The translations under genes were made by a program, and so were the position numbers. A stretch of DNA of 64,000 nucleotides from assembly GCF_944324525.1 (NCBI RefSeq), contig NZ_CALUWS010000006.1, positions 1-64,000 on the forward strand, given 5' to 3'. This DNA is from an uncultured Desulfovibrio sp. GTDB taxonomy: Bacteria; Desulfobacterota; Desulfovibrionia; Desulfovibrionales; Desulfovibrionaceae. The notes below the pieces were generated by a model that was given only the letters and a program-made list of their open reading frames with translations, searched no databases and was not told the DNA's origin. Below, piece by piece: positions 19,514 to 32,214 of the stretch (position 1 is its first letter; every line of letters begins with the position of its first letter).

Positions 19514-19689
19514 ACCGACCGGCGGGCGGCATGCGGAACCTCGGCCTGCTTGTCCGGCGGGAGGCTCCGCCGCTGCCCGTCTTCCAGACGACCCGCCTCC
19601 ATGCCCGCTCAGTGAGCGTACGGGCGATGGCGGCGGAAGCAACGCACAACTGACGCGCTGCCTTTGACAGCGAAAAGGAGCGACCGACA

Positions 19690-20067
19690 ATGACCCTGAG
19701 CAATATGGGCCTGCTGGCGCTGGCCGGGGCAATGGGCACGCTGGCCCGCTATGGCGCATCGGAGCTGGCCAACCGGCTGGCCGGGGGCCAGTATCCGCTG
19801 GGGACCTTCACGGTCAACGTGGTGGGATCCTTCCTCTTCGGCTTCATCTGGCATCTGGCGGCCGTGCGTCTGCTCATCCCCGACCATGTGCGCATCATCC
19901 TGCTGGTGGGCTTCATGGGCTCGTTCACCACCTTTTCGTCCCTCATGTTCGATTCCTTCGCGCTGGGGCAGACGCGCCTTGTGCTGCTGTTCTTCAACAT
20001 CGGGGCGCAGGTGGTGCTGGGCATGGGGGCGCTGCTGCTGGGCATGACGCTGGCCCGGCAGCTTTGA
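19690..20067 (+). CDS. crcB: CrcB/Fluc fluoride channel
   Basis: This 125-aa dimeric inner-membrane channel exports fluoride. Four membrane segments are visible, with family motifs GTLARYGASEL, TFTVNVVGSFLFG and GFMGSFTTFSSLMFDS. AAAAGGAG precedes ATG 19690. It is convergent with the small UGA-containing gene that ends seven bases beyond it. The upstream 176 bases contain a hairpin (GCCCG..CGGGC near 19600) but no convincing fluoride riboswitch. Confidence 0.93.
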   Translation: MTLSNMGLLALAGAMGTLARYGASELANRLAGGQYPLGTFTVNVVGSFLFGFIWHLAAVRLLIPDHVRIILLVGFMGSFTTFSSLMFDSFALGQTRLVLLFFNIGAQVVLGMGALLLGMTLARQL

Positions 20068-20074
20068 TGCACCG

Positions 20075-20419
20075 TTAATCCCCGCCGCCGCCTCCGTCGC
20101 AGCCTCCACAATCCCCCCCACCGTCGCCGTCGCCTCCATCGCCGTCCCCGCCAAAGAATCCCCCGCAATGAGGGCAGCGACCGCTTGTCGGGGCATGGGA
20201 ATCGGGGGTGTCATCGAAAAAAGCGTCGTCCTTGCTCAGAGTGCCACCAGTACCGTCCACGGGGGCCCTCGAACCGAGGGCACGCTGTCTGGGGCGTCAG
20301 CCGCAGCGTTTTTTTATCATGTCGTCAAAGACAAGATATCGGAAGATGAAGTAAATCAGGAAGAGCAGAAAAACCACGAGTAAAAATTTACCAAGCAAGC
20401 TGAGCAGTTCCCATATCAT
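20075..20419 (-). CDS. Candidate selenoprotein 1: small membrane protein with in-frame UGA (Cys-Gly-Sec)
   Basis: Not recognised as a known family. ATG 20419 has a GGAGGA site seven bases upstream. Residues 8-29 form one membrane segment (LGKFLLVVFLLFLIYFIF). The frame reaches ..MIKKRCG then UGA (20299-20297) and stays open to TAA at 20075. Read as Sec41 the protein has 114 residues: RPRQRALGSRAP, then FFDDTP (67-72), a CPHC pair (82-85) and a Gly/Asp-rich tail ending CDGGGGGD. The paralogue at 20714-21019 shares the UGA position and the RPxxRALGxRxP, FFxDxTP and CDGGGG motifs. A SECIS-like hairpin follows the UGA and selB is in the window. The alternative is a 40-aa protein ending at UGA, but that would not explain conservation beyond it. 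Confidence 0.7.
20265..20281 (-). promoter_or_regulatory. SECIS-like hairpin after the UGA of candidate selenoprotein 1
   Basis: GCCCTCG-GTT-CGAGGGC (minus strand) is a perfect 7-bp stem, or 5 bp with loop GGTTC. There are 21 bases between the UGA and the loop GG. Bacterial SECIS elements lie within the coding region at about this distance and need a G (followed by U) in the apical loop for SelB. Confidence 0.6.
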
Positions 20420-20713
20420 GCAGGTCCTCCAGGTACAGGATTCCTTGTGTGTTTTTTGGGGGGGAGAAGTCTCCTCCTGCTGTGCTGGCGATGCCTGCCG
20501 GCGCGGCCCTGCGGGGCCCTCCCCGGAGCGTTGCCCTGCAGAAAGGCATTTTTTCCTCCGCACGCTCCTCCGCCTTTCCCCCACCCTCCGCCGGGGTGAG
20601 GAGGATGGGGCGCGAAGCATCCGTTCAAAGGAAAGAATATCTTCCTTTCCAGAGGGTCAGACTTCCCTCCTCGAGATGGGGTGTCTGATCATGCGTCCCG
20701 GCCCTGATGCCGT
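20420..20713. other. Gap between the two UGA-containing genes
   Basis: It holds the ribosome site of the downstream gene near 20427, and at about 20460-20530 a degenerate reverse fragment similar to the family 1 module (GCTGTGCTGGCGATGCCTG). No further gene is supported. Confidence 0.5.
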
Positions 20714-21019
20714 TCAATTCCCGCCGCCTCCGTCGCACGACGAACCGGCTGAGGATCCGCCCCCGGCATGATCGCCGCTACGGTTGCTGCCGGCGGGACG
20801 GGATGACGCGGCGGACGGCGTCCTTGCTCCGGGCGTGCTGTCGAAAAAGAAGCCGCCCTTGCGCGGGGGGAGTTCATTGTCGTTCAGCGGATCCCTCAGA
20901 CCGAGGGCGCGCAGGTTGGGGCGTCAGCCGCAGCCGTTGCCCGCCGCGCCGTTGCCGATGAGGCGCGACAGGCCAAAGCCCAGCAGGCCGCAGATCAACA
21001 GGATAAGCAGGATATCCAT
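20714..21019 (-). CDS. Candidate selenoprotein 2: small membrane protein with in-frame UGA (Cys-Gly-Sec)
   Basis: This is the paralogue of the gene at 20075-20419, same strand, directly upstream. ATG 21019 follows AGGGAGGT. Residues 2-20 form the membrane segment (MDILLILLICGLLGFGLSRL). The frame reaches GNGCG then UGA (20926-20924), and stays open to a TGA at 20716-20714. Read through, it has 101 residues with Sec32: RPNLRALGLRDP, FFFDSTP (57-63), a Ser/Gly-rich region and the end CDGGGGN. A hairpin with loop GGTCT follows the UGA. No CPHC pair is present, unlike copy 1. If UGA were a stop, only a 31-aa peptide would be made. Confidence 0.68.
20893..20907 (-). promoter_or_regulatory. SECIS-like hairpin after the UGA of candidate selenoprotein 2
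   Basis: CCCTC-GGTCT-GAGGG (minus strand) is a 5-bp stem with loop GGUCU. The UGA-to-loop distance is 21 bases, identical to copy 1. The loop bases GGUCU are those of the E. coli fdhF SECIS loop. Confidence 0.6.
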
Positions 21020-21040
21020 ACAGACCTCCCTTAAAGGGCG

Positions 21041-21190
21041 TTAGAGCGTTTCACCTTTGAAAAAGGTGAAACGCGAGGCGGCGGCACAGCGCCGCCCGGC
21101 CCAAACCAAGCGGAAAAACCGCGTTTTTTCCGCGAAACGCCAGACCGTATGGTTTGAAACGCAACGCGTTTCAAACTGGAAATGCTCTAG
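21041..21190. repeat. Family 2 intergenic repeat, full copy (150 bp)
   Basis: The ends TAGAGCGTTTC and GAAATGCTCTA form a 10-of-11 terminal inverted repeat. Inside are successive hairpins: GTTTCACCTTT/AAAGGTGAAAC, GGCGGC/GCCGCC, GCGGAAAAA/TTTTTTCCGC and GTTTGAAACGC/GCGTTTCAAAC. It has no coding capacity and lies between hydF and the second UGA-containing gene. Confidence 0.8.
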
Positions 21191-21210
21191 GACTGCCTTC
21201 ATATATGCCG

Positions 21211-22491
21211 TCAAGCATGCCCTGCCCGGACGTTCTGGTCAAGGCAGGCCTCCCGGTAGGCGGCAAGAGCTTCGGGGAAAGGCGACAGCACCCGCTCCAG
21301 CACGCCCTGCGCCAGCGATATGGCCATACCGTAATTGGTCATGGGCAGATCGGCGCGCTGGGCCGTGATGAGACGGCGGGTCATCTGACGCCGGCTGAGG
21401 GTGCAGCCGCCGCAGTGCACCACGGCGCGGGGCCGGGGGGCGGCGGCATAGTCCTGCCAGTGACGCCCGGCCAGCAGGCGGCAGTCCAGTTCTCCGCCCG
21501 CCAGACGGGCCAGCAGGCGCGGGATCTTGACCCGGCCGATGTCGTCGGCCTGCGGATGATGCGAGCAGGCTTCCTGGATAAGGACCGTGTCGCCCGGCCG
21601 CAGGCTGTGGAGTGCCGCCGCGCCGCGCGCCAGCAGGGGCAGATCGCCCTTGAGGCGGGCCATGAGCACGGAAAAGGTGGTGAGCGGCACCTCCGCCGGC
21701 GCTGTGGCGGCGACGGCGGCGATGACCTGCGAGTCGCAGACGATGAGCTGCGGCGGCTCGCGCAGGCTGTCCAGCGCCGCGCCGAGGGCCTTGTCCGTGA
21801 CCACGAGGCAGAGCGCGTCCCCATCCAGCGCATCGCGGATGGCCTGCACCTGCGGCATGATGAGACGTCCCTTGGGCGCGCTGCCGTCCTGCGGGCAGAC
21901 GAGGAGCAGCCGTCCCCGCGGAGGCAGGAGATCGCGCAGCAGGGGAGGCTCTTCCTCCTGCGGCCGCAGGCGCACCAGCAGCTCCCGCACGCCGTCGAGC
22001 GCGCCGGCGGGCGTGGCCGCTCCGTCCAGACGGCAGATGGTCAACGGGACGGACGCGGGCAGGGCGAAGGCCTCCGGCCCCAGCTGCCGGGCAGCCTGTT
22101 CCGCCGCGTCGGCCCGGCAGTTGCAGACGATGCCGAACGGCACGTCCGCTTCCTTCAGCAGGGCGGCCAGTTCGCGTTCCGGCGCTCCCCAGCGCTGATC
22201 TTCCAGCACGATGAGGGCCATGTCCACTTCCTCGAGCGTGCGCAGGCTGCGGGCCACGCGTTGCGCGCCCAGTTCCCCCGCGTCATCCAGGCCGGGCGTG
22301 TCCAGCAGCACCACAGGGCCCAGCGGGGCCAACTCCATCACTTTTTCCACCGGGTCGGTGGTCGTGCCGGGCACCGGCGAGACGAGGGCCGCATCCTGTC
22401 CGCACAAGGCGTTGCACAGACTGGACTTCCCGGCATTGCGGCGGCCGAAGAGACCGATATGCAGCCGCTGGGGACGACGGGCATCAGACAT
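21211..22491 (-). CDS. hydF: HydF, [FeFe]-hydrogenase maturation GTPase
   Basis: HydF is the scaffold on which the 2Fe subcluster of the H-cluster is assembled before transfer to the hydrogenase. The GTPase domain shows GRRNAGKSSLCNAL, the G3 motif DTPGLDD and a T-rich switch (PGTTTDP). The C-terminal FeS domain has CSHHP and HCGGC (family Cx1H..HCxxC). At 426 aa it has family length. It overlaps the end of hydE by eight bases, so the two are translationally coupled. HydG is not in the window. Confidence 0.95.
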   Translation of the reverse strand: MSDARRPQRLHIGLFGRRNAGKSSLCNALCGQDAALVSPVPGTTTDPVEKVMELAPLGPVVLLDTPGLDDAGELGAQRVARSLRTLEEVDMALIVLEDQRWGAPERELAALLKEADVPFGIVCNCRADAAEQAARQLGPEAFALPASVPLTICRLDGAATPAGALDGVRELLVRLRPQEEEPPLLRDLLPPRGRLLLVCPQDGSAPKGRLIMPQVQAIRDALDGDALCLVVTDKALGAALDSLREPPQLIVCDSQVIAAVAATAPAEVPLTTFSVLMARLKGDLPLLARGAAALHSLRPGDTVLIQEACSHHPQADDIGRVKIPRLLARLAGGELDCRLLAGRHWQDYAAAPRPRAVVHCGGCTLSRRQMTRRLITAQRADLPMTNYGMAISLAQGVLERVLSPFPEALAAYREACLDQNVRAGHA

Positions 22492-23464
22492 GGGCGGGAT
22501 CTCCTGCCGGAGGGGCGGCGGGCAGACGGTGCCGCAGCCCGGCGGCGGTTATGGCGTGGCGGGCGGCGGCAAGGCTCACCTGCGCCTTGTTGTCGTAAAT
22601 GCGGTAGGCCGAACGGCAGGCGGGCGGCGTGAAGGAGGGCATGAGCACGTTGGCCCCGGCCAGCAGGCCCTGACGCTGTCCGTCCGCGGGGGAGAGGCTC
22701 GCCAGCGCCGTGGTGGCGGGCAGGTGCGCCGTGGGCAGGACAAGACGCAGGACGGCCAGCACCCGCAGGGTCAGCGGCACGTCGCCACGGGGCGCATGGG
22801 CCAGCGGCGTTTCGGTCTGCGGGATAAAGGGGCCCACGCCGCACATGGCCACGCCCAGCCGCCGCACCAGCAGGATGTCGTCCGCCAGCGACGTGGGACG
22901 CTGCCCCGGCACGCCCACCAGAAAGCCGGACCCCACCTCGTAACCCAGCTCCGCCAGCCATTCCAGCGCCCGCAGGCGTTCCGCCAGCCGGTGACCGGGA
23001 TGCAGGCGGGCATACAGGGCCGCATCCGCCGTCTCATGCCGCAACAAGAAGCGGTCCGCGCCGGCTTCCCGCCAGCAGGCATAATGCTCGCGCGGCACTT
23101 CTCCCACGCTGAGGGTCACGGCAAGCCCCAGCTCGGCCTTGACCCACCTGACGATGCCGGCCAGCCAGTGCGGCGGGCGCTCCCATTCGCCGGATTGCAG
23201 GACGAGGGTATCCACCCCGGCGGCGGCCGCCTGCCGGGCGGCGGCCAGGATCTGTCCCTCCGTCAGGCAGTAGCGCCGCAGCTCGCGGTTGGCGCGCTGC
23301 AGGCCGCAGTAGCGGCAGTTGCGGCGGCAGAGGTTGGAGAATTCCAGCAGGCCGCGCACGAAGACGTGCCGCCCCACGGCGGCGCGGCGCTGTTGCTGCG
23401 CCGCCGCCCGCAGTTCGGGCCACGGCATGCGGAAAAGCAGTTCGAGGATCTGGCGGCGGTTCAT
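22484..23464 (-). CDS. hydE: HydE, [FeFe]-hydrogenase maturation radical SAM enzyme
   Basis: This 326-aa radical SAM enzyme makes part of the H-cluster dithiolate-bridged centre. The cluster motif is CRRNCRYCG (CxxxCxxC); FSNLCRRNCRYCGLQRANRE and YEVGSGFLVGVPGQ are typical of HydE/BioB-like proteins. ATG 23464 (MNRRQILELLF) is chosen; the frame runs open upstream into a family 2 repeat and that extension is not family-like. It overlaps hydF. Confidence 0.94.
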   Translation of the reverse strand: MNRRQILELLFRMPWPELRAAAQQQRRAAVGRHVFVRGLLEFSNLCRRNCRYCGLQRANRELRRYCLTEGQILAAARQAAAAGVDTLVLQSGEWERPPHWLAGIVRWVKAELGLAVTLSVGEVPREHYACWREAGADRFLLRHETADAALYARLHPGHRLAERLRALEWLAELGYEVGSGFLVGVPGQRPTSLADDILLVRRLGVAMCGVGPFIPQTETPLAHAPRGDVPLTLRVLAVLRLVLPTAHLPATTALASLSPADGQRQGLLAGANVLMPSFTPPACRSAYRIYDNKAQVSLAAARHAITAAGLRHRLPAAPPAGDPAHV

Positions 23465-23530
23465 AGTGCGGGAAAGCGGTCGGACAACGGACTGGACAGG
23501 CGGGGAATGACGGAAGGCAGGAGGCCGCCC

Positions 23531-23643
23531 GTATGAGCATTTTTCGTGTGAAACACTTCGCGTTTCACACCGTACGGCCTGGCGTTTCGCGGAAAAAACG
23601 CGGTTTTTCCGCTCACGTTCGGCCAAAGACAAAATACTCATAC
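23531..23643. repeat. Family 2 intergenic repeat, reverse orientation
   Basis: GTATGAGCATTTT and AAAATACTCATAC are near-perfect terminal inverted repeats (12 of 13). The interior has GTGTGAAACACTTCGCGTTTCACAC-like and GCGGAAAA..TTTTTCCGC hairpins matching the 21041-21190 copy in reverse. It separates the hydrogenase gene from hydE. Confidence 0.75.
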
Positions 23644-23664: not shown

Positions 23665-25119
23665 TCAGCCGCGCGGCGCGCTGTCCGGCGAGGACTGGGC
23701 AAAGCGATCCACCAGCCGGGCGGCCTTGTCCGCCTCGGCCAGCACGCCCGCGCCGCCCACGCAGCCGCCCACGCAGGTCATAACCTCGATGAGGTTGCCG
23801 GGGCAGCTGCCGTCGATGTAAGACTGCATCTTGCGCAGAGCCTGCAGGGAAAGGCCGTTGATGAAGATGGGGCGTACGTCCTCCCGTTCGCTCACCACCT
23901 TCTTGACCGCCGCGGCCACGCCGCCGGAGATGGCGTAGCCGCGTCCGGCCCCGCTGGCATTGCCCAGCCCGGCCTCGGCGCAGTCTTCCACCACGATGCC
24001 CTTGGCGTCCAGCAGCGCGCCGACCTCCTCGAAGGTCAGCACGAAGTCCACCAGCGGATCGTTGAGTCCTTCAGTGCGCTTGGCGACGCACGGGCCGAGG
24101 AAGACGTTGATGGTCTCGGGGTGGGCCTGACGCGAGAGCTCGGCCGTGTAATGCATGGGCGTGCGCGTCTCGGAGACGAAGGGGAGCAGGTTGGGCGCAT
24201 GACGGCGCACCGCCTCCACATAGGCCGGACAGCAGGAGGTGGTCATGAATTTGTCGCCGCGCGCCATGCGTTCCACGAATTCCTCGGCTTCCTTCTGACT
24301 GGTGACGTCCGCGCCGGAGGCCACTTCCATGACCTCGTCAAAGCCCAGTTCCTTGAGCGCGGTGATGATGCGCGGCAGGCCGCCCTTGAACTGGCCGACC
24401 ATGGCCGGGGCCACCAGCGCCGTCACATGGGCCTCGCTGCGCAGGGCCTGCAGCACTTCCAGCACCTCGCTGCGCTCCATGACCGCGCCGAAGGGACAGG
24501 CCCGCATGCAGCGGCCGCAGCTCGTGCACTTGTCGAAATCGATCTCCGCGCGGCCTTCGGGGCCCTTGTGGATGGCCTGCACCGGGCAGGCGGCCTCACA
24601 GGGGACATTCAGGCGCACGATGGCCTGATAGGGGCAGTGCTCATGGCATTGTCCGCAGTTGCGGCACTTGTTTGCGTCGATATAGGAACGCCCCTGCGCA
24701 AAGGATATGGCCCCGAAACGGCAGCTCCCGGCGCAGGAACGCGCCACGCAGCCCTGACAGGCGTCGCTGACGAAATAGCGGGCCTTCATGCAGCCGTGAC
24801 AGGCGATGTCGCAGACGGTCAGGATGGGCCAGTTGGGCGTCTGGTCGGCCAGGGCCTGTTCGGCCAGGTCGCGCAGGGGCACGCTGTCGTCCGTCTGATC
24901 TTCCAGCCGGAAGCCCAGTGCCGCTATGATGCGTTCGCGCAGGATGGCCCTGTCCTTGTAGATGCAGCAGCGCGTCTGCTCATTGCCGTTGCGCGGCCGC
25001 ATGACGAAGGGGATGTTGTCGATGCTCTCGACCAGACGATCTTCCCAGAATGCCCGGGCAATGTGACCGATGACGCCGAGGCGCAGGGCACAGACCATAT
25101 TCTTGTTTTGCAGGGTCAT
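23665..25119 (-). CDS. [FeFe] hydrogenase, monomeric (group B-like)
   Basis: This 484-aa cytoplasmic protein has two ferredoxin-type clusters (NKCRNCGQCHEHCPYQAI, DKCTSCGRCMRACPFGAV) and extra Cys clusters at the N-terminus (DIACHGCMKARYF, CQGCVARSCAGSC). The H-cluster domain follows: L1 TTSCCPAY, L2 LGPCVAKRTE and L3 EVMTCVGGCVGGAG, so all four cluster cysteines are present. The Cys arrangement and the lack of a signal or NADH module fit group B hydrogenases, whose physiological direction is poorly known. CAGGAGA precedes ATG 25119. HydE and HydF follow. Confidence 0.88.
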   Translation of the reverse strand: MTLQNKNMVCALRLGVIGHIARAFWEDRLVESIDNIPFVMRPRNGNEQTRCCIYKDRAILRERIIAALGFRLEDQTDDSVPLRDLAEQALADQTPNWPILTVCDIACHGCMKARYFVSDACQGCVARSCAGSCRFGAISFAQGRSYIDANKCRNCGQCHEHCPYQAIVRLNVPCEAACPVQAIHKGPEGRAEIDFDKCTSCGRCMRACPFGAVMERSEVLEVLQALRSEAHVTALVAPAMVGQFKGGLPRIITALKELGFDEVMEVASGADVTSQKEAEEFVERMARGDKFMTTSCCPAYVEAVRRHAPNLLPFVSETRTPMHYTAELSRQAHPETINVFLGPCVAKRTEGLNDPLVDFVLTFEEVGALLDAKGIVVEDCAEAGLGNASGAGRGYAISGGVAAAVKKVVSEREDVRPIFINGLSLQALRKMQSYIDGSCPGNLIEVMTCVGGCVGGAGVLAEADKAARLVDRFAQSSPDSAPRG

Positions 25120-30261: not shown

Positions 30262-32214
30262 TCAGGAGGGCTGACGCGTGCGCAAGTGCCGTGCGTCGCC
30301 TACTCTGACGGTGATCTTTTCCCTGTCCATGTATTCGAGCAGGGCTATGAGAAATTTGCGGGAAAGGCCGGTGATCTCCTTGAGGCCGGCAAGGCCGAGA
30401 TCGTCGTGGTCGGCGAACCACTGCCGGGTGCGGGACAGGATCTCCTCCAGCGGGGCGGCGGCATAATAGAGGCCGTCGGCCACGCGGACGAGCGCCTTTT
30501 CCTCGCAGAGCAGACGCAGCACGGGAGCGGCTTCCTTCTGGCTGACGTCAAGTTCCGCGAGAACGTCCTTGAGGTTGGGCGGGGCCATGCCGCCCGCTTC
30601 ATGGGCGGCCAGCAGCTTTTGCCGCAGGCCCTGCTGATCCCCGGCCAGGGAGACGGTATGCGAGGGCAGGCGCAGACCGTCGCCCTCCTGGACGAGGAGG
30701 CCTTTCTTGATGGCGCTTTCCAGGACGCGCTGCACGAGACGGGGCGGGAGGTCCTTGCTCCAGCCCGCACAGATGGCTCCCTGCCCGTGGACGGGCTTGA
30801 GGGGGTGCTTGCGGTGCAGTTCGTCGGCGCGCCGGCAGGCGGCCTGCATGAGCAGGTTGAAGGCCTCGCCGTCTATCCATTGGCGCTGCTCCCGGTTCCA
30901 GCAGATGAGCTTGCCGCGTGAGGCAAGATCCACCAGCAGCTTGTGCAGCTGCGAGGCGGGGAGGCCGGAAAGCGCCTGCAATGTCGGGACATCGCAGCCC
31001 ATGACGTGCCGGATCTCCATGATGGCCAGCACAAGGGCCATGCCGCCGTCTTCGGCCAGGCGGGCGGGCGTGGCCAGTGCGGCAAGCTCGCGGAACAGTT
31101 CCAGGTTGCGGGCGCGGCGCGGGGCGCGGGCGCGCAGTTCCGGGGGCAGGGGCGAAACGATGCTGCCGCCGGCCACGGTACGCAGGGGCGAATAGGCCCG
31201 GACGACGCAATGATCCCCGAAGACGCCGGCCAGCGGCTGCGGGAAGCGCAGTTCCGCCAGGCAGGATTCGCCGGGAGCGAGGCGGTCCCGGTCGAAGAAG
31301 ACGACGCGCGCGGCGCATTCCTGCGTCCCGTGGTGGAAGTGGACTTCCGTACGCTGGCGCAGGGCCCGGGGCGCGGAGGGAAGGCAGGTCAGTTGCAGCA
31401 GCCAGCGCCGGGCGGGGAAGAGCGTCCCCGGGCGGGCCAGCACCTGCCCGCGGCGCAGGCTGTCCGTTTCCGTGCCCTGAACGTTGATGGCGCAACGCTG
31501 GCCCGCGCGCACGACCTCGGCGGCCGCGCCGTGACGCTGCAGGGCCCGTGCGCGGACGGGGATATCCTCGGGCATGGCGGAAAGCTCCTCGCCGCTTTCC
31601 AGCCCGCCGGAGATGACGGTGCCGGTCACCACCGTTCCGTGGCCCTTCATGCCGAACACGCGGTCGATGGGCAGGCGGAAGAGGTCGGTGGGCACGCGGG
31701 GCGGGATCTCGGCCGCACAGCGGTAGATGTGGGCGCGCAGGGCATCGATGCCCTCGCCGGTGACGGAAGAGACGGGGAAGATGGGGGCCTGTTCCAGAAA
31801 ACTCCCCTTGAGGAAGGAGCGAACGTCTTCCGTGACGAGTTCGAGCCACTGGGCATCCACCATGTCGCACTTGGTCAGGGCCACGAAACCGCGAGTGATG
31901 CCGAGCAGGGTGCAGATGTCGAGGTGTTCGCGGGTCTGCGGCATGACGCCTTCATCCGCGGCGATGACCAGCATGACGAAATCCACCCCCGCCGCGCCGG
32001 CCACCATGTTCTTGACGAAGCGCTCATGCCCCGGCACATCGACGATGCCCAGCCGTTCCCCGTCGGGGAGTTCGGCCCAGGCAAAGCCCAGTTCGATGGT
32101 GATGCCGCGCCGTTTCTCCTCTTCGAGGCGGTCGCAGTCGATGCCGGTCAGCGCGCGCACCAGCGAGGTCTTGCCGTGATCGATGTGTCCCGCCGTGCCC
32201 AGTACAAGCGCCAT
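30262..32214 (-). CDS. selB: SelB, selenocysteine-specific elongation factor
   Basis: SelB delivers Sec-tRNA to in-frame UGA codons by binding the SECIS hairpin. The GTPase domain shows [28 protein letters not shown] and TKCD; the beta-barrel domains follow ([14 protein letters not shown]). The C-terminal 250 residues hold winged-helix repeats (ending [30 protein letters not shown]) that bind SECIS RNA. At 650 aa it has family length. AAAGGAG precedes ATG 32214 ([15 protein letters not shown]). Its presence shows the organism decodes UGA as Sec. selA, selD and selC were not seen in the window. Confidence 0.97.

Follow-up and report, generated by a model that had tools for sequence, protein, structure and literature searches.

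Two adjacent small membrane protein genes with an in-frame UGA predict a new selenoprotein family beside an [FeFe] hydrogenase locus in Desulfovibrio

Do the in-frame UGA codons of two neighbouring genes in an uncultured Desulfovibrio end two very short membrane peptides, or are they decoded as selenocysteine (Sec)? The window, that is, the whole 64,000-nucleotide stretch of DNA analysed (from the genome termed G000), carries both genes on its minus strand. Gene A (20714–21019) is predicted to encode a 101-residue selenoprotein, running from an ATG at 21019 to a terminal UGA at 20716–20714, and gene B (20075–20419) a 114-residue paralogue, running from an ATG at 20419 to a UAA stop at 20077–20075. 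Each is preceded on the same strand by a GGAGG ribosome binding site read from the sequence, at 21025–21029, 5 bases before the ATG, in gene A and at 20426–20430, 6 bases before the ATG, in gene B. The in-frame UGA of gene A (20924–20926, minus strand) falls at residue 32, directly after Cys30-Gly31, with 69 open codons behind it, and that of gene B (20297–20299, minus strand) falls at residue 41, directly after Cys39-Gly40, with 73 open codons behind it. These coordinates confirm the initial annotation, according to which both genes have good ribosome sites, a single membrane segment and Cys-Gly-UGA, with the frame staying open behind it. Pairwise comparison gives 35–36% identity between the two products, and the RPxxRALGxRxP motif reported directly after the UGA is exactly common to both. 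A shared motif is also present in the middle, although its common form is FFDxTP (FFFDSTP in A, AFFDDTP in B) rather than FFxDxTP, and the CDGGGG tail is similar in the two, but B has one extra Gly (CDGGGGGD versus CDGGGGN). The open frame alone proves nothing, because at least 69 open codons follow 333 of the 1485 UGA triplets in this window of 64.6% G+C. Unlike frame length alone, conservation in other genomes together with codon-level constraint is beyond chance.

The family comprises nine genes, spread over 7 of the 79 genus genomes searched (G000, G071, G070, G068, G125, G043 and G008), with gene B present only in G000 and G071. The searches, with gene B against 121 related genomes, with gene A against the 79 genus genomes and with an eight-row profile against 348 genomes of the order and 395 of the phylum, agree on these seven carriers. 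The initial annotation had looked to homologues with UGA or Cys at this site for support: TGA occupies the same alignment column in all nine genes and none has another stop there, whereas homologues with Cys at the Sec position were found neither in protein searches nor in a Cys-pattern scan of GTDB contigs. A closed frame behind the UGA had been named as grounds for rejection, and the frame is open through the FFxD motif in every carrier. Even in G008, whose orthologue is the most distant (41% identity), U-x-x-NLRALGLRDP and FFHD are retained. Specifically, a protein search with gene A alone scored 72 candidates, none at E 1 and none a Cys form, and the search with the eight-row alignment gave no Cys form among the 7996 candidates listed and a single match, P0002, which consists of the first 40 residues of gene B behind an upstream stretch and ends at Cys-Gly. 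P0002 is the sole protein found, and annotation cuts the family at the UGA. The Cys-pattern scan returned 169 stretches, with no relative at E 1e-3. Cys homologues are nearly always present in known selenoprotein families, though they are not obligatory.

A DNA pattern combining the UGA with the hairpin described below, which is exact and misses diverged forms, matched six stretches of the same GTDB contigs and none in viral contigs. Five of the six come from Desulfovibrio records matching carriers G070, G043, G125, G068 and G071; these records include Candidatus Desulfovibrio intestinavium and Candidatus Desulfovibrio gallistercoris, and their names point to the gut. In the sixth, from an alphaproteobacterial record, the open frame is a different one, and the match is taken as chance. 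G000 and G071 share 98.5% of 1392 bases across window positions ~19601–20992, a stretch that extends from within gene A across gene B to crcB. Identity per 100-base block is 0.99–1.0 from ~20721 to 19921, against 94% at the end of hydF and ~85% at the start of gene A, and the stretch is possibly a recombination tract. Because gene B is nearly identical in its only two genomes, its conservation is not counted here, and the paralogue loses the role of independent evidence that it had initially been given.

In the window, genes A and B are flanked by hydF (21211–22491, minus strand; TIGR03918, 462.6 bits, cut-off 325.55), the upstream neighbour encoding the [FeFe] hydrogenase maturation GTPase, and by the convergent fluoride channel gene crcB (19690–20067, plus strand; PF02537, 80.2 bits, cut-off 32.9). 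Beyond hydF lie the radical SAM maturase gene hydE (22484–23641, minus strand; TIGR03956, 302.5 bits, cut-off 254.6) and the gene for a monomeric group-B1 [FeFe] hydrogenase (23665–25119, minus strand; TIGR04105, 548.7 bits, cut-off 450). A family gene stands between the group-B1 [FeFe] hydrogenase locus and crcB in all seven carriers. Six of them share the order group-B1 [FeFe] hydrogenase, HydE, HydF, A (B) and then crcB in the opposite direction, with a SPOR-type neighbour before the hydrogenase in five of the six, the G071 locus ending too early. The distance from hydF to gene A is ~50 bases in G070, G068, G125 and G071; the corresponding gap in G000 holds a stretch (window 21060–21200) that is rich in palindromes and contains terminator-like hairpins. 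The hydrogenase frame of G070 (G070:C91:1183-2547) holds an in-frame TAG. In G008, the SPOR-type protein, the hydrogenase, gene A and crcB follow one another on one strand; the group-B1 [FeFe] hydrogenase scores over cut-off (G008:C2:20259-22631), whereas no HydF does so, although the genome is listed as 100% complete. Since G008 keeps the gene without a HydF over cut-off, HydF is not an obligate partner of the gene. The G008 hydrogenase may follow another maturation route, or the protein may no longer be a hydrogenase.

Group-B1 hydrogenases occur in 18 of the 79 genus genomes, including all seven carriers, and 11 of the 18 are without a family gene. In the tree of this hydrogenase, the carriers group together as a single clade with a support of 97/93. 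In line with the constant locus and the single carrier clade, the distribution fits a single gain beside the group-B1 hydrogenase, with the gene kept even where hydE and hydF are absent from the locus. In non-carriers, tblastn searches for A or B gave no match in 30 hydF loci or in 19 crcB loci plus three ~15 kb regions, and none in 6 hydF regions except one in G022 (E 0.003, 28% identity). Scanned for a UGA with a hairpin behind it, the 19 crcB loci of non-carriers gave four matches, all unrelated sequence, and short membrane-type frames downstream of hydF in nine loci, one of them with masked bases, bear no resemblance to the family. Among the candidates rejected from the genome searches, the rows of four other-genus genomes and of G028 and G066 in the gene B search were chance by translation, as were the best rows of all 21 non-carriers among the 28 of 79 genomes that matched gene A at E 0.1. 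With the eight-row profile, 21 of the 348 order genomes matched, and all 14 non-carriers were rejected, including G144, whose match is a FeoB-associated protein; 6 of the 395 phylum genomes matched, with carriers G000 and G008 among them and the other four due to chance.

Searches of the family against Pfam and NCBIfam gave no match over cut-off. In its N-terminal part, the family is similar to the FeoB-associated Cys-rich membrane proteins (PF12669), which makes metal handling the main rival role. In this explanation, the genes would encode selenoproteins descended from PF12669 proteins and acting in metal trafficking, with the hydrogenase and the fluoride channel as mere neighbours. The two groups are alike in their short length and in a build of one N-terminal helix, a basic patch and a Gly-Cys cluster, which in PF12669 takes the place of Cys-Gly-Sec; three of the eight members match the model, with a best E of 0.0065, and the matches reach residues 32–33, in the Cys/Sec region. 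They differ in that all matches stay below the curated cut-off (best 17.2 bits, in G008, versus 27 bits), and in that the A/B family has Sec, an NLRALGLRDP and FFxD tail and no feo neighbour, gene A being adjoined by hydF or HydB1 and by crcB instead. A six-frame PF12669 search at E 0.1 lists neither A nor B in any carrier, the hhalign alignment of profiles is limited to the helix, and equally high scores came from 4 of 60 tail-shuffled controls. Moreover, a separate protein of this type is encoded elsewhere in all seven carriers (over cut-off in six, below it in G071). Descent from PF12669 is the best placed of the alternatives, and we regard it as unlikely. The G144 protein (G144:C38:219679-219792) is a FeoB-associated Cys-rich membrane protein whose next gene resembles feoA by eye, and it reads GSGCGCC where gene A reads GNGCGU.

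Behind each UGA lies a SECIS-like hairpin, a feature absent from the initial annotation. That of gene A (20893–20907, minus strand) is CCCUC-GGUCU-GAGGG, its loop beginning 21 nt after the UGA, and that of gene B (20265–20281, minus strand) pairs as GCCCUCG-GUU-CGAGGGC or, with a 5-nt loop GGUUC that likewise starts 21 nt behind the UGA, as GCCCUC-GGUUC-GAGGGC. The other carriers have the same kind of hairpin. In G008, it is CUCUC-GGUCU-GAGAG, in which one C-G pair of gene A is replaced by U-A with both sides changed; covariation is weak overall, 84 of 500 shuffles being as good. The bSECIS model, as given in PMC13188914, has a loop of 3–9 nt, a stem of 4–16 bp, G in the first two loop positions, a spacing of 16–37 nt and an energy of at most −7.5 kcal/mol. 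The G000 hairpins fall within this shape, with a loop of 5 or 3, a stem of 5 or 7 and a spacing of 21–22. The energy is borderline: taken alone, the hairpin reaches −6.9 kcal/mol in the six A genes, short of the −7.5 kcal/mol limit, and −11.5 kcal/mol in gene B, while the genome's own FdhA element reaches −7.1 kcal/mol by the same calculation and the 40-nt element of gene A −10.4 kcal/mol. The G008 hairpin fails the −7.5 limit and is missing from that sequence's best fold, and fold z-scores are unremarkable. The published model is also loose, as 163 of the 1485 UGAs in the window pass it. A GGTYY loop on at least 5 pairs, a pattern chosen after seeing the sequences, follows only two of the 1485, those of genes A and B. 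Rfam identifies no family in the window at gathering score.

The strongest argument comes from the codons behind the UGA. Codon models were fitted to seven sequences on a fixed tree over a grid of omega and kappa, with columns aligned as protein. For the post-UGA codons up to FFFDxTPGA, the best omega is preferred to omega 1 by a 2dlnL of 22.9; it lies at 0.3 on the grid, 0.2 being nearly equal. With the 13 hairpin-overlapping codons removed, the 2dlnL is 11.9, so that coding-type constraint runs 33 codons past the UGA, beyond the hairpin, whereas for the part before the UGA the best omega gains only 2.75 over omega 1. Additionally, pN/pS pooled over six A genes falls from 0.78 ahead of the UGA to 0.52 behind it, and the two shifted frames used as a control give 0.91 and 1.58 against the 0.52 in frame. 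This constraint favours translation over a plain stop at the UGA. Were the UGA a true stop, the genes would encode membrane micropeptides of 31 and 40 residues, and the conserved stretch behind would be a regulatory RNA hairpin. Low synonymous divergence around the UGA fits such nucleotide-level constraint, a hairpin directly behind a stop codon would suit it, and the predicted helix, in the structure model, finishes before the UGA. Yet the constraint outlasts the hairpin, the FFxD motif is kept in paralogue B and in G008, and no terminator-like site is listed at 20893–20907 or 20265–20281. Taken together, we consider termination at the UGA very improbable.

Beyond FFxD, the genes are less constant. 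The initial annotation had argued from a conserved CDGGGG tail, an argument that does not hold, since the tail is altered in four of the six A genes and absent in the seventh genome, G008. Besides G000, only G070 keeps CDGGGGD. In G071, the tail of gene A is frameshifted, the matching tail lying in another frame, and that of G125 is probably frameshifted too; G043 has a different tail, and the G008 gene ends early. In G068, UGA takes the place of the tail Cys codon of gene A (L005:1777-1779). A second Sec is conceivable there, but a stop is more likely because no short frame comes after. Tail statistics are rough, as the sequence entered for G125 extends beyond its stop codon and that for G071 is frameshifted there. 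Such tails could mark gene A as decaying, with fast change and breakage as signs of approaching loss, and gene B as a recent copy; in four genomes, HydF is 90–96% identical where gene A is 64–86%. However, the core and the UGA are kept in all seven genomes, and omega after the UGA is 0.2–0.3, which leaves decay a very slim chance.

The window also contains selB, the gene for the selenocysteine elongation factor (30280–32205, minus strand), where one frame matches in two stretches (TIGR00475, 328.8 bits counting neighbours in the frame, cut-off 242.25), and the statement that selB is present stands. SelB and tRNA-Sec both score over cut-off in all seven carriers, and FdhA has an in-frame UGA in the three of three genomes tested, with its hairpin loop at 22–23 nt. 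Insertion of another residue, such as tryptophan, or leaky read-through is the least probable explanation of all: post-UGA coding constraint by itself is silent on which residue is inserted, but SelB and tRNA-Sec occur alongside an FdhA that contains a UGA, the UGA of the A/B family comes after Cys-Gly and before a GGU-loop hairpin, and gene A itself would terminate at a UGA.

Because the UGA is conserved, the codons behind it are constrained, a hairpin follows and SelB and tRNA-Sec occur in the same genomes, we conclude that genes A and B very probably are decoded with selenocysteine. With slightly less but still good confidence, their products are predicted to be small single-helix membrane selenoproteins with Cys-Gly-Sec, a new family confined in the searches made to one Desulfovibrio clade. 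The structure model has a single helix at residues 2–23 with disorder behind, and its mean pLDDT of 55.8 makes it too poor for a fold search. The Cys-to-UGA spacing varies between CGU and the CGGGU of G008. Arg and Lys residues come after the helix in all three sequence types (A, B and G008). Basic residues mark the cytoplasmic side of a membrane helix under the positive-inside rule, and Cys-Gly-Sec should for this reason be cytoplasmic.

We propose that the in-frame UGA, with its GGU-loop hairpin at SECIS distance, would be decoded as selenocysteine, and that the helix would be oriented N-out, placing Cys-Gly-Sec and a flexible tail on the cytoplasmic side. There, the selenol and the nearby Cys at the membrane face might form and open a reversible selenenylsulfide, and the protein could act as a membrane-tethered thiol-selenol redox relay, or as a protector, for the hydrogenase encoded at its own locus. 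This role was chosen because a selenol stands beside a thiol and the hydrogenase is a constant neighbour; the idea of a selenol partner that is tethered to the membrane and serves the hydrogenase locus is a tentative guess. More doubtful still is a further proposal, that this is an all-Sec orphan family which arose with UGA-Sec in one Desulfovibrio clade, has no Cys ancestor or counterpart and serves as a membrane-docked selenol partner of the group-B [FeFe] hydrogenase.

The 2026 catalogue of bacterial selenoproteins lists 119 families and subfamilies in its Table 1 (PMC13188914). With the bacterial selenoproteins described there, A and B share the UGA, a hairpin lying within 16–37 nt and having G among its first loop positions, SelB and tRNA-Sec, and a Cys near the Sec; CxU is also given for a UshA-like protein and for ferredoxin-thioredoxin reductase (PMC13188914). 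They differ in that the searches gave no homologue with Cys in place of Sec. In names, domains and motifs, none of the catalogue entries corresponds to a one-helix protein with CGU-RPNLRALGLRDP (PMC13188914). As in the [NiFeSe] hydrogenases that the same source covers, selenocysteine would be tied to a hydrogenase in sulfate reducers, but there Sec lies inside the hydrogenase, whereas A and B would carry it as distinct small membrane proteins encoded next to an [FeFe] hydrogenase (PMC13188914). A literature search on FeoB-associated selenoproteins, new Desulfovibrio membrane selenoproteins, or selenocysteine together with group B FeFe hydrogenase returned nothing on the subject, most subscription journals lying outside its scope. 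On the strength of these names, domains and motifs, the A/B family is set apart from the catalogue as a predicted new bacterial selenoprotein family.

Detection of bacterial selenoproteins, as the catalogue and the deep-Sep criteria present it, leans on Cys homologues or known Sec homologues (PMC13188914; PMC12013277). Because it rests largely on these, a Sec-only family would be overlooked. If confirmed, the A/B family would mean that Sec-only families exist beyond the reach of standard methods, and looking for a UGA followed by a GGU hairpin, together with codon constraint between closely related genomes, would offer a recipe for finding them. Should the family indeed be an orphan that serves the hydrogenase, it would be a sign that methods built on Cys/Sec pairs miss a class of selenoproteins and would provide, to our knowledge, the first link of selenium to [FeFe] hydrogenases. 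For the organisms themselves, confirmation would tie selenium to an [FeFe] hydrogenase locus in sulfate reducers whose records carry names suggestive of the gut.
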